Assembly (NCBI RefSeq): GCF_007988805.1
Contig: NZ_BJUV01000006.1
Coordinates: 62,001-126,000 of the forward strand
Reading direction: 5' to 3'
Source: Frigoribacterium faeni
GTDB lineage: Bacteria; Actinomycetota; Actinomycetes; Actinomycetales; Microbacteriaceae
DNA length: 64,000 nt
The position numbers were made by a program, and so were the translations under genes. The notes beneath the pieces were generated by a model. The model searched no databases, had not been told where the DNA came from, and was given only the letters and a program-made list of their open reading frames with translations. Positions 20,749-37,727 of the stretch are shown here, piece by piece (positions within the stretch are counted from its first letter, which is position 1; each line of letters begins with the position of its first letter).

Positions 20749-22086
20749 ATGATCCGATCCACCAAAGGCCTGAAGGCCCTGGCGCTCGCAGGGGCCGCCT
20801 CGGTCTTGCTCGCCGCCTGTTCGTCGACGTCGTCGGCTCCTGAGGACGGCGGCTCGTCGTCGCCGTCGGCTTCGCAGAAGGCCGACCCCGCAGCATCGTG
20901 CGAGGCTCCCAGCAGCCCCGGACAGGACGCACTCCGCATCGGCACGATCCTGCCGAACACGGGCACCCTCGCCTACCTCGCCCCGCCCGCCGAGGCCGGC
21001 ATAGGCCTCGCCGTCGAGGACATCAACGCCGCCGGCGGCGTCCTCGACCAGGACGTCACCGTCGAGCCCCGCACCGACTCGGGCGACAGCAACGACCTCA
21101 CCGTGTCGAGCGCTGCAGCGACGCAGCTGATCGACGCGAAGGTCCCGGTCGCGATCGGCGCCGAGTCGTCGAGCGTCACGCTCAACGTCATCGACCAGCT
21201 GACCGCCGCCTGCATCGTCGAGATCTCGCCGGCCAACACGGCCTCCGCGCTCAGCGGGTACTCGTCGTACTACTTCCGCACCGCTCCGCCGGACTCCGTG
21301 CAGGGCTCGGCGCTCGGCACGCAGATCGTCAACGACGGCCGCGCCAACGTCGCCTTCCTCGTCTTCAACGACACCTACGGCACCGGTCTCCGTGACGCCG
21401 TGCAGGAGTCGGTCGAGGCGTCCGGCGGCAGCGTCGTCTACGGCGGCACCGGCGAAGGCCAGGAGTTCCCTCCCGGTCAGACGACCTTCTCGTCCGAGGT
21501 GACGGCGGCTCTGGCCACCGACCCCGACGCGATCGTCATCCTCGCCTTCGACGAGACCAAGTCGATCGTCCCCGAGCTCGTCGCTCAGGGTGCTGACATG
21601 ACCTCGATCTACATGTCGGACGGCAACACGGCCGACTACAGCGAGGACTTCGACCCGGGCACCCTCGAGGGCGCTCAGGGCACGATCCCCGGCGCGTTCC
21701 CCTCGACCGACCTGCAGAAGCGCTTCAGCGACTTCTACCAGGAGAGCGCCGGCTCGGCCCTGACCGACTACTCGTACGCACAGGAGTCGTACGACGCCAC
21801 CATGCTCGCCGCGCTCGCCGCGGTGAAGGGCGGCGGAACCGACTCGGGCACCATCCAGGCCAACATGGCTGCGGTGTCCGGCGCCGACGGCGGTACCGAG
21901 TGCACCACCTTCGCCGACTGCAAGACGGCGATCGAGGCCGGTGACGACATCCACTACACCGGTCCCTCCGGCATCGGACCGTTCGACGACCAGAACGACC
22001 CGTCGAGCGCCTTCATCGGCATCTACAAGTTCGACGCCGACAACAAGATCGTCTACCAGACGGCGGTCGAGGGCACGGTCCAGTAA
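20749..22086 (+). CDS. Branched-chain amino-acid ABC binding lipoprotein
   Basis: The 445-residue protein has a lipoprotein signal peptide with lipobox LAAC (Cys24), so it is anchored outside the membrane. The mature part is a LivJ/LivK-type periplasmic-binding fold (Peripla_BP_6): LRIGTILPNTGTLAYLAPPAEAG, AVEDINAAGGV, and the hinge YGTGLRDAVQESVEASGG. It should capture an amino acid or similar ligand for the permease encoded by livH-livM-livG-livF. Unusually, those genes lie on the opposite strand and converge on this one across a repeat region. The ligand is unknown. Confidence 0.9.
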   Translation: MIRSTKGLKALALAGAASVLLAACSSTSSAPEDGGSSSPSASQKADPAASCEAPSSPGQDALRIGTILPNTGTLAYLAPPAEAGIGLAVEDINAAGGVLDQDVTVEPRTDSGDSNDLTVSSAAATQLIDAKVPVAIGAESSSVTLNVIDQLTAACIVEISPANTASALSGYSSYYFRTAPPDSVQGSALGTQIVNDGRANVAFLVFNDTYGTGLRDAVQESVEASGGSVVYGGTGEGQEFPPGQTTFSSEVTAALATDPDAIVILAFDETKSIVPELVAQGADMTSIYMSDGNTADYSEDFDPGTLEGAQGTIPGAFPSTDLQKRFSDFYQESAGSALTDYSYAQESYDATMLAALAAVKGGGTDSGTIQANMAAVSGADGGTECTTFADCKTAIEAGDDIHYTGPSGIGPFDDQNDPSSAFIGIYKFDADNKIVYQTAVEGTVQ

Positions 22087-22106
22087 CACGACCTGTCTCA
22101 CTCTGC

Positions 22107-22138
22107 GGAGGCCCCGGCGCGACAGCGTCGGGGCCTCC
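22107..22138 (+). terminator. Terminator after livJ-like gene
   Basis: GGAGGCCCCGGCGC and GCGTCGGGGCCTCC form a 14-base stem (one mismatch) with a 4-base loop, 21 bases after the stop codon. Confidence 0.85.
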
Positions 22139-22165
22139 GTCGTGCGCCCGCCCGTCGGCGTCTGC

Positions 22166-22223
22166 TCGAGTGGTCAGAAGATGCTCTTCGTGGCGCGGTG
22201 AAGAGCATCTTCCGACCACTCGA
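22166..22223. repeat. Long palindrome, copy A
   Basis: Two 24-base arms (22166-22189 and 22200-22223) flank a 10-base loop GTGGCGCGGT. The arms are complementary except for one A-C mismatch. Each arm contains the smaller palindrome GAAGATGCTCTTC (or its complement), so each could also fold on its own. The flanks CGGCGTCTG and TCGTGGTGCGGG are shared with copies B and C. Confidence 0.95.
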
Positions 22224-22273
22224 TCGTGGTGCGGGCGCGTGAGGGGCGCGAGGGGCACGGTGGCGTGGGGTGG

Positions 22274-22347
22274 GCGCGAGGGGCGCGTGGTGCACGTGAG
22301 GGCGTCGTGGGGGCGCGAAGGTCACGGTGGCGTGGGGCGGGCGCGAG
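22274..22347. repeat. 74-base direct repeat, first copy
   Basis: This G-rich block is repeated base for base 140 bases further on at 22414-22487. It contains GTGGTGCACGTGAGGGCG. Confidence 0.9.
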
Positions 22348-22358
22348 GGGCGCGGGGT

Positions 22359-22406
22359 GGGCGTGTGGAGGTGTGAGGCGTGGCGTGGGGCGCGTGAGAG
22401 GGGCGC
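22359..22406. repeat. 48-base direct repeat, first copy
   Basis: This block (starts GGGCGTGTGGAGGTGTGAGG) recurs at 22662-22709. It lies between the two copies of the 74-base repeat. Confidence 0.88.
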
Positions 22407-22413
22407 TAGGGGC

Positions 22414-22487
22414 GCGCGAGGGGCGCGTGGTGCACGTGAGGGCGTCGTGGGGGCGCGAAGGTCACGGTGGCGTGGGGCGGGCGCGAG
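22414..22487. repeat. 74-base direct repeat, second copy
   Basis: Exact second copy of 22274-22347. It runs into a very G-rich stretch (22473-22516) with many GGG runs. Confidence 0.9.
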
Positions 22488-22524
22488 CGGGCGCGGGCGC
22501 GGGGGCGGGCGCGGGCGTCCCTCG

Positions 22525-22574
22525 CGACGAGCGTCCAGGGGCGTCGCCCGCGACGAACCCTGGTCGGCGTCTGC
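22525..22574. repeat. 50-base lead block before copy B
   Basis: This block (starts CGACGAGCGTCCAGGGGCGT) abuts palindrome B and recurs with a few changes at 22779-22828 before palindrome C. It shows that B and C share a composite unit of about 110 bases; copy A lacks most of it. Confidence 0.85.
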
Positions 22575-22632
22575 TCGAGTGGTCAGAAGATGCTCTTCGT
22601 GGCGCGGTGAAGAGCATCTTCCGACCACTCGA
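22575..22632. repeat. Long palindrome, copy B
   Basis: Identical over all 58 bases to copy A, including the 10-base loop and the single A-C mismatch between arms. The downstream flank diverges within about 20 bases. Confidence 0.95.
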
Positions 22633-22661
22633 TCGTGGTGCGGGCACAAGGGGCGCTTGGC

Positions 22662-22709
22662 GGGCGTGTGGAGGTGTGAGGCGTGGCGTGGGGCGCGTGA
22701 GAGGGGCGC
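22662..22709. repeat. 48-base direct repeat, second copy
   Basis: Second copy of 22359-22406, 30 bases after palindrome B. Confidence 0.88.
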
Positions 22710-22778
22710 GAGCGGGCGTGGGGGTGCGATGGCGTGGGCGCCCCCGAGACGAGCGTCCGCGGCGTGAGACGCTCCCGA

Positions 22779-22828
22779 CGACGAGCGTGCAGGGGCGTCG
22801 ACCGCGCCGAACCCTGGCCGGCGTCTGA
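22779..22828. repeat. 50-base lead block before copy C
   Basis: Variant of 22525-22574. It carries a few substitutions, whereas the palindrome that follows is nearly unchanged. Confidence 0.82.
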
Positions 22829-22888
22829 TCGAGTGGTCAGAAGATGCTCTTCGTGGCGCGGGGAAGAGCATCTTCCGACCACTCGATC
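22827..22888. repeat. Long palindrome, copy C
   Basis: Same element as A and B, with arms lengthened to 26 bases because GATC pairs with GATC at the outer ends. The loop reads GTGGCGCGGG (last base G instead of T). The same A-C mismatch is kept. Confidence 0.95.
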
Positions 22889-23021
22889 GTGCGGCGGGTA
22901 CGAGAGGCGCGAGAGGCGTGCGGGGGCGTGAGGCTCGCGCGACGTACGTGGGCGTGGGTGCCCCTCCGGGCGACGCCCGCCCCGCACCGCTCCGCCCAGC
23001 CCCCCCGCCTCCACACACGAA

Positions 23022-23054
23022 GGAGGCCCCGCACGGCGAGCGTGCGGGGCCTCC
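23022..23054 (-). terminator. Terminator after livF
   Basis: GGAGGCCCCGCACG and its complement form a perfect 14-base stem with a 5-base loop, 31 bases past the livF stop on the minus strand. Its GGAGGCCCC arm resembles that of the livJ terminator at the other side of the repeat region. Confidence 0.85.
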
Positions 23055-23084: not shown

Positions 23085-23873
23085 TCAGTGCGAGTCGTCG
23101 ACGTCCTTCGCGAGGGTGCCGAGGTAGAGCTCGATGACCTTGGGGTCGTCGGCCAGCTCGCGGCCGGTGCCCGAGTAGGCGTTGCGGCCCTGGTCGAGCA
23201 CATAGCCGCGGTCGCAGATCTGCAGGCAGCGGCGGGCGTTCTGCTCGACCATGATCACCGAGACGCCGGCCTTGTTGATGCGGCGGGTGCGGATGAAGGT
23301 CTCGTCCTGCCGGACCGGCGAGAGTCCGGCGGACGGCTCGTCGAGCAGCAGCACCTTCGGGTCCATCATCAGCGCGCGCGCCATGGCGACCGACTGCCGC
23401 TCGCCGCCCGAGAGCGAACCGGCCCGCTGGCCGCGGCGGTCGCCGAGCACCGGGAACAGGTCGTAGATGTACTCGAGCCGCTCGGCGAACTTCTTGGGGC
23501 GGAGGAACATCCCCATCTGCAGGTTCTCCTCGATGGTGAGCGAGGGGAACACGTTGTTGGTCTGCGGCACGAAGCCCACGCCGGCCTGCACCAGCTTGTT
23601 GGCCTTCAGGTTCGTGATGTCCTCGCCGCCGAGCGTGACCGCTCCGGAGTGGATCTTCACCAGCCCGAAGAGCGCCTTCAGCAGAGTCGACTTGCCGGCG
23701 CCGTTCGGGCCGATGATGCCGATCAGCTCGCCCGGGTAGCAGACCAGGTCGCAGCCGTTGAGGATGTTGACCCCGGGCAGGTAGCCCGCCACGAGGTCGC
23801 TGGCGTTCATGATCGGTTCGATGCCCGCGAACTTCTCGGTTCCCGGGTGCATCTGGGTGGTCGAGGCGCTCAT
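23085..23873 (-). CDS. livF: Branched-chain amino-acid ABC ATPase LivF
   Basis: The 262-residue ATPase has Walker A GPNGAGKST near residue 55, signature LSGGERQSVAMARALM, Walker B VLLLDEPSAGL and the H-loop region VIMVEQNA. The VEQNA(R) motif is typical of LivF. It should couple ATP hydrolysis to uptake through LivH/LivM. Its ATG overlaps the end of livG by four bases. It is the last gene of the livH-livM-livG-livF operon. Confidence 0.93.
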   Translation of the reverse strand: MSASTTQMHPGTEKFAGIEPIMNASDLVAGYLPGVNILNGCDLVCYPGELIGIIGPNGAGKSTLLKALFGLVKIHSGAVTLGGEDITNLKANKLVQAGVGFVPQTNNVFPSLTIEENLQMGMFLRPKKFAERLEYIYDLFPVLGDRRGQRAGSLSGGERQSVAMARALMMDPKVLLLDEPSAGLSPVRQDETFIRTRRINKAGVSVIMVEQNARRCLQICDRGYVLDQGRNAYSGTGRELADDPKVIELYLGTLAKDVDDSH

Positions 23874-37583: not shown

Positions 37584-37619
37584 GAAGGCGCCCTCCACGT
37601 TCGCGTGGCGGGCGCCTTC
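37584..37619 (+). terminator. Terminator after guaA
   Basis: GAAGGCGCCC and GGGCGCCTTC, extended by CCACG-TTCG-CGTGG, give a stem of about 15 pairs with a TTCG loop. Confidence 0.88.
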
Positions 37620-37671
37620 CTCGTTCTCGGAGGTGGCTGCGTCGCCGGCCGGGGCGGGTGCCCCATGACGA

Positions 37672-37711
37672 CGACGAGGGCCCCGTTCCGGTCGGAACGG
37701 GGCCCTCGTCG
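37672..37711 (-). terminator. Terminator after Bax inhibitor-1 gene
   Basis: CGACGAGGGCCCCGTTCC pairs perfectly with its complement across a 4-base loop, 16 bases beyond the stop of the minus-strand gene. Confidence 0.88.
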
Positions 37712-37727
37712 TGGGTGTCGCGGGCGA

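Follow-up and report, generated by a model that had tools for sequence, protein, structure and literature searches.

The locus studied here raises the question of what three nearly identical long palindromes represent in the non-coding gap between two convergent liv genes, and whether they belong to this gap alone. The window, by which we mean the whole 64,000-nucleotide stretch of DNA that was analysed, is part of a Frigoribacterium genome (Microbacteriaceae), and the binding protein encoded there shares 97% identity with those of Frigoribacterium sp. CFBP 13712 and Leaf263. The gap is bounded by the gene for this LivK-like periplasmic binding protein (20749..22086, + strand; PF13458) and by an ABC transporter ATPase gene that is LivF-like by context (23085..23873, - strand; PF00005). 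Each gene is followed by a GC-rich hairpin that is probably a terminator. The first, after the binding-protein gene (22106..22139, + strand), is separate from the palindromes and is so read from its shape and place; the second, after the ATPase gene (23022..23054, - strand), would have the same role. Since each convergent gene thus has its own hairpin near its stop codon, the palindromes lie between two terminator-like hairpins. We recovered all three, described at the outset as inverted repeats of 58-62 bases; none is assigned to a strand. Copy A (22166..22223) has 24-bp arms (22166-22189 and 22200-22223) around a 10-bp loop. Copy B (22575..22632; arms 22575-22598 and 22609-22632) is identical to A over 58 bp, and copy C (22827..22888) differs from A by a T to G change in the loop and extends its pairing to 62 bp, continuing through GATCGAG...CTCGATC. 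The sequence GAAGATGCTCTTC occurs exactly six times in the window, confined to the three repeats; with up to two mismatches it has 13 window matches, compared with a shuffled mean of 0.75. Folded with RNA parameters, copy A reaches -40.8 kcal/mol (z -7.7). The inner arm also contains GCTCTTC (window 22177-22212, 22586-22621 and 22840-22875), the SapI/BspQI recognition site.

The array of three looks like the product of local tandem duplication. The copies lie in common 132-nt units of element plus flank (22116-22247, 22525-22656 and 22779-22910, together spanning 22116..22910, without strand), the A and C units being 76% and 92% identical to the B unit, and in two other gaps a single copy in the genome G003 corresponds to two and four copies here. 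The spacer between A and B (window 22223-22520) consists largely of GC-rich tandem-like repeats with units of 89 nt and 82 nt. In the liv gap of Leaf263 there are two related palindromes, and in that of CFBP 13712 one decayed match (three by eye); at an equal threshold, no palindrome match came from the nine further Frigoribacterium loci that were scanned.

The unit recurs well beyond this gap, and the condition named at the outset as refuting a general repeat family, occurrence here alone, does not hold. With ATCGAGTGGTCnGAAGATGCTCTTC-N10-GAAGAGCATCTTCnGACCACTCGAT at up to 12 mismatches, we found it at 64 places (61 distinct copies) in 282 kb of the home genome, consisting of the window and 21 stretches picked around matches; one of these places, with 10 mismatches, overlaps a neighbouring copy. 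A pattern search of the whole home genome returned 50 copies with perfect outer 9-mers. The unit is a 60-bp dyad made of a 25-bp arm, a 10-bp loop and a 25-bp arm, and a free-spacing scan of the home-genome stretches recovered the 10-bp loop in 63 of 63 copies. Conservation ends at the edge of the dyad, beyond which the flanks are unpaired. The 44 non-redundant flanks are unconserved except for one G on each side (29/44); the foot reads CGAG, and these flanks contain no conserved GTAG or CGTC tag. Convincing solitary half-sites are absent from the 282 kb, where three matches were found, all at the 7-mismatch limit. In a comparison that kept 31 of 63 copies, arms are 91-92% alike between copies and loops are slightly above chance (0.381 versus 0.343 scrambled). 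The best match of one Rfam search was a microRNA hairpin at 30.7 bits, for a gathering score of 80, and in a second, over nine loci, no element was matched. A single motif resembling an uptake sequence can be dismissed, as 109 occurrences of CGAGTGGTC lie within elements and five lie outside, with 8.3 as the expectation of an order-1 model.

Two finer points of the preliminary description do not hold generally. The A-C mismatch between the arms is indeed kept in all three copies of the array, but it falls in a column that varies across the home-genome set and is Watson-Crick in 24 of the 61 distinct copies there. The small palindrome nested in each arm is strong in the home genome (0.89 nested pairs versus 0.27 scrambled), but in eight of nine other sets it is no commoner than in scrambled arms at a 5% threshold, and the two folded forms proposed from it do not appear to be a family trait. 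G022 has a nested dyad at a neighbouring register.

Relatives were sought with the pattern CGAGTGGKC-N36..44-GMCCACTCG (total length 54-62 bp allowed), the reversed pattern serving as control. Within Frigoribacterium, 15 of 16 genomes carry between 8 and 50 copies, G004 carries none, and the reversed pattern gave 0 matches; with the excess of matches in the window and the 64 places in the home genome, this rejects a chance palindrome. The Microbacteriaceae sample is positive in 25 of 299 genomes and 13 of 85 genera (6 Frigoribacterium genomes and 19 others), and the order-level sample in 16 of 248 genomes. Relatives are present in at least four families besides Microbacteriaceae: outside the family, G388 has 12 copies, G435, G339, G519 and G540 have three each, and the other seven positives are single matches, as are seven of the 19 positives from other genera of the Microbacteriaceae. 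Such single matches could be due to chance in either sample, since the reversed pattern also matches once in each of six genomes of the family sample and nine of the order-level sample, G130 and G435 among them; four single 61-bp matches in the order-level sample look unrelated. Copy number is patchy: G022 has 39 copies, and five of its congeners have 0-5. Length is nearly fixed at 55-58 bp in almost all listed elements. This total length and the outer arm CGAGTGGKC are conserved, and the inner arm is lineage-specific: GAAGATGCTCTTC in the home genome, TTTGGGCCCC in G022, CGATTCGTCG in G321 and, in most G388 copies, six variable bases followed by GGTCG. Searches of the open-licence literature on Microbacteriaceae, Frigoribacterium, Micrococcales and actinobacterial palindromes returned no description of the family among the matches listed. 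The initial observation is confirmed as correct, and it had underestimated the extent of the phenomenon. Further long palindromes recur in L232, L233, L234, L237, L238, L241, L243 and L244, with the forms GACCCC..GGGGTC, CGGCGGGTTCCCGTCATC.., GAGTTGCC.. and, in one case with 24/10/24 geometry, GTGAGCCGTC... An origin from phages or plasmids was rejected: a 71-base query was unmatched, the half-site had no IMG/VR match, and the six IMG/VR matches to a wider pattern show no internal pairing by eye and look like chance.

Both the outer sequence and the base pairing of the stem appear to be under constraint, to judge from the conserved outer arm, paired changes across the genus and a mixed picture of covariation within genomes. 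The genus-wide alignment comprises 34 of 48 loci, 12 duplicates having been left out together with L184 and L186, which have another loop length. In it, 75 cells have changed on both sides compared with 29.7 in shuffles, and none of 500 shuffles reached as high a value; 22 of its rows were BLAST matches, and the 12 others were recovered with a structure model, which biases the alignment towards pairing. Within genomes, four of twelve sets show significant covariation: G022 (p 0.0002; 39/39 elements), G388 (p 0.00015; 10/12), G001 (p 0.01; 10/28) and a pool of G026 and G314 that mixes two genera (p 0.025; 5/5 and 3/8). Six adjacent variable mid-stem positions of G388 are matched in all 10 copies examined. 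The remaining eight sets have p above 0.05; they are the home genome and seven that are not significant individually, namely G006 (15/15 elements used), G012 (10/13), G011 (7/13), G007 (12/17, one listed row omitted), G321 (7/12), G130 (7/9) and G313 (5/5). Fisher's method gives 1e-7 over the twelve sets and 0.0017 without G022 and G388. In the home genome itself the arms vary independently, with 93.7% of cells paired versus 93.5% after shuffling and a covariation score that 101 of 500 shuffles reached.

Many element sites are old and vertically inherited, so that any mobility at the present day would be hypothetical. In an element-dense region, as many as six species have elements in corresponding gaps, and the arms are specific to each locus. 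At six orthologous sites, mean pairwise identity is 0.98 in the outer arms (826/846), a value inflated by the scan's requirement for the outer motif, 0.88 in the inner arms (1170/1326), 0.75 in the loops (343/460) and 0.69 in the flanks (2378/3434); loop conservation depends on the site, from 1.00 at alpha to 0.51 at beta. The early impression that the palindromes have diverged less than the DNA around them thus extends to orthologous sites, where the arms have changed less than either the loop or the flanks. Homogenisation towards a genome consensus, as a general rule, was rejected for the group of G015, G013, G008, G009, G005 and G010, in which arms follow the locus. Another gap of the window (37585..37712, no strand) contains two terminator-like hairpins only and no element, and the G002 orthologue of this 37.6-kb gap has an element between two GC-rich hairpins; a clean empty site was not found. 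Copy-number differences and local arrays imply past copying. Copies of the family are scattered, vary in number from one related genome to another and are inherited at orthologous sites. We regard the family as real, old and apparently constrained, with the architecture of a REPIN but lacking several of the features that define one. The idea that the dense C15 region is a 'cassette' was dropped; of seven proteins scanned there, five belong to common families and two to none.

Mapping of the copies to gene ends, as the preliminary description had proposed, placed most of them in the first 100 bp after a stop codon. This holds for 35 of 42 gaps in the home genome (0.36 of random intergenic placements), for 32 of 52 in other Frigoribacterium, a region-biased set (0.23 random), and for 28 of 31 in other genera (0.37 random). 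Convergent gaps account for 50%, 25% and 58% of these three sets, versus 23%, 16% and 19% at random, and 20 of the 125 placed gaps are divergent. The counts take the first element per gap, exclude three edge gaps and one in-gene gap from the home genome and one in-gene gap from other genera, and rely on a home-made codon-usage gene caller trained on the home genome. In the home-genome set a single copy was called as intragenic: a palindromic insert of 20 codons that keeps the reading frame and lies in the linker of an ABC ATPase (L080:1738-1797, with orthologues in L195-L200 and L202). It occupies the same point in eight of the 14 Frigoribacterium orthologues examined and is absent from the other six; G004 and G006 gave only ~50% identity matches. 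A protein-coding reading of the 60-bp unit as 20 codons was otherwise rejected, as 13 of the 61 distinct copies have TGA in frame at the variable column and changes also fall outside third positions; coding does occur within this one ABC gene. Positional conservation across two genera is suggested by elements near lexA (L265:1501-1557 and L322:8964-9019) that are separated by 16-17 bp from the stop codon of MetE (PF01717), both with weak inner pairing (8/14). Two side observations concern other sequences. At L091:10104-11303 of the home genome, HAD and GNAT domains share one 400-aa ORF, whereas the GNAT portion corresponds in several relatives to a shorter gene of its own; L318:9647-9729 in G321 is a ZMP/ZTP riboswitch that scores over the Rfam gathering score.

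Such placement raises the possibility of a bidirectional terminator or mRNA 3'-end hairpin, the stem of which would form in both convergent transcripts and stop polymerase or block exonucleases. The strong 3' location, the very stable folds and the MetE-side elements in two genera are consistent with this role, as is the lower frequency of another strong hairpin in convergent gaps with an element (4/34) than in those without (15/45). It fits poorly with the divergent gaps and with the other GC-rich hairpins that flank elements both in the liv gap and in the 37.6-kb gap of G002. There was also no terminator-like call at the window elements, made by a scan that needs a T run and discriminates little, since it missed two GC-rich hairpins nearby as well. 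The non-Watson-Crick pairs on the sense strand of tandem gaps comprise 36 G-U, 42 A-C and 83 others. As an mRNA-selected hairpin should favour G-U, the lack of a G-U excess leans towards a DNA reading, in a weak test of 78 cells. For published REPs, frequent G-T pairing was read as a sign of transcription (PMC3733652). An mRNA role of the hairpins is not favoured here, and we regard the terminator reading as doubtful while granting it real weight.

Were the unit instead a duplex site for a dimeric DNA-binding protein, such as a roadblock or a nucleoid or chromosome organiser, it would consist of two 25-bp half-sites at fixed spacing. The constant inverted pairing at one spacing, the lack of convincing solitary halves in 282 kb, the outer motif conserved across families and the independent variation of home-genome arms around their consensus would all suit such a site. 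The match of six adjacent variable positions in G388 would be needless for it, the genus-wide covariation also speaks against it, and local arrays and patchy copy number resemble mobile DNA; we consider this reading unlikely. Patchy copy number, together with inverted arms and dispersion, could also be claimed for a MITE-like element, the remains of a DNA transposon that has kept terminal inverted repeats of 25 bp but hardly any interior. Among 44 non-redundant flanks out of 62, however, target-site duplications of lengths 3-9 were nowhere above shuffles (length 2: 9 versus 5.8, p 0.086). The 282 kb of home-genome stretches contained no half-sites parted by cargo, and the stem changes are paired. 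A MITE origin is very improbable. The stretches scanned for single ends, these 282 kb, had no autonomous transposon with equal ends. Of the REP/BIME- or MITE-like element first suggested it is the dispersed, REP/REPIN-like repeat family that stands.

Less could be made of the proposed RAYT or other Y1 partner. PF01797 (Y1 transposase, RAYT family) had no match in the 16 genus genomes and was absent from 17 of the 18 other carriers, or 33 of the 34 genomes overall; positive controls for both searches matched in 5 of 14 reference genomes. The single match, in G026 (L321:1456-1878), is a 140-aa ORF between lexA and metE, with its stop 27 bp from an element. Aligned to IS608-type TnpA by weak PDB matches (E 0.018-0.03), it has A and R at the positions of the HUH histidines and F at that of the tyrosine. 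These are the catalytic residues of IS200/IS605 transposases, and they have apparently been lost. Such a Y1 relative beside an element hints at domestication; the ORF could be a binder that has been domesticated, or its presence there could be coincidental. It is no more than a candidate partner, since elements adjoin many genes, its gap also ends the MetE gene, and no Y1-like ORF was called beside the MetE element of the second genus. Recognition by TnpAREP is treated in PMC8266576.

The reading that we consider probable, if by a small measure, is that of a REPIN-like family of DNA hairpins without RAYT, combining recognition of a folded strand, spread by other means, survival after stop codons and, here, local duplication. 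Its unit is one inverted doublet: the outer arm, CGAGTGGKC, is conserved, the mid-stem tends to remain paired while its sequence can change, the inner motif is particular to the lineage, and the loop of ~10 bp is free. A protein reading the outer arm would recognise the unit as a folded DNA strand, either a single-stranded hairpin or a cruciform, and bursts of spread could be the work of a nuclease or transposase other than a recognisable RAYT. Copies would persist chiefly just 3' of stop codons, often between convergent genes, and in the window local tandem duplication would then have turned one copy into three. Several observations stand against this reading: no mobilising enzyme was found (PF01797 in one of 34 genomes), nor target duplication, nor a clean empty site; home-genome copies lack pairing covariation, as do seven other within-genome sets, and a nested palindrome of the REP type is no general trait. 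A tentative and rather unlikely proposal is that hairpins of several Actinomycetota families are recognised, and were copied, by a non-RAYT hairpin-reading protein and have been kept by selection as a DNA-level boundary that insulates convergent genes. Among REP-like repeats, the best understanding has come from the RAYT enzymes, and the papers cited describe such repeats mainly outside Actinomycetota. The present family offers REP-like architecture and placement without a RAYT, across many genomes and at orthologous sites that can be aligned, and makes two questions testable: what else copies hairpins, and whether selection on pairing acts at the level of DNA or of RNA.

Several known systems bear comparison with these hairpins. 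An integron attC site would have an R-box core, GTTRRRY, and go with an integron integrase. Intrinsic terminators likewise place a stable hairpin directly 3' of stop codons, but here no T run follows the stem, the sequence recurs genome-wide, and other terminator-like hairpins coexist in some gaps; the T run is perhaps no terminator criterion in the home genome, since neighbouring GC-rich hairpins also lack it. Rickettsia palindromic elements, named in PMC3733652, resemble the ABC ATPase insert as palindromic repeats inside a protein-coding gene, whereas the present family has one in-frame site, common to eight of 14 orthologues, as its only in-gene copy in the home-genome set. The CGTC-tagged REP super-family is described in that paper: its members are mostly head-head dimers 3' of ORFs and between convergent ORFs, some copies are intragenic, and a dedicated transposase is apparently missing (PMC3733652). 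Units of that super-family combine a stem of 8-9 bp and a loop of 4-5 nt with a CGTC tag and, in most cases, a CCA tail, whereas here the conserved part, CGAGTGGKC, forms the base of a single long stem. The main text of that paper does not contain the word 'actinobacteria'. A REPIN is a REP doublet that forms a hairpin (Bertels & Rainey 2011, PMC3116915). The present family differs in that 33 of 34 searched genomes lack a RAYT, the GTAG/CGTC foot is not seen, convincing solitary or decayed single units are missing from 282 kb, length is nearly fixed at 55-58 bp between outer 9-mers, and the half-unit is not generally palindromic by itself. Here too, an inverted doublet forms one hairpin, mostly extragenic and downstream of ORFs, with compensatory changes in its interior (outside the home genome and seven other sets). 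As described in that paper, REPINs are intergenic inverted doublets with conserved ends, a variable interior with compensatory changes, and tandem clusters of up to four with flank included (PMC3116915), and it is the match in conserved ends, compensatory interior and tandem clusters that recommends the REPIN-like reading of the palindromes in the liv gap.
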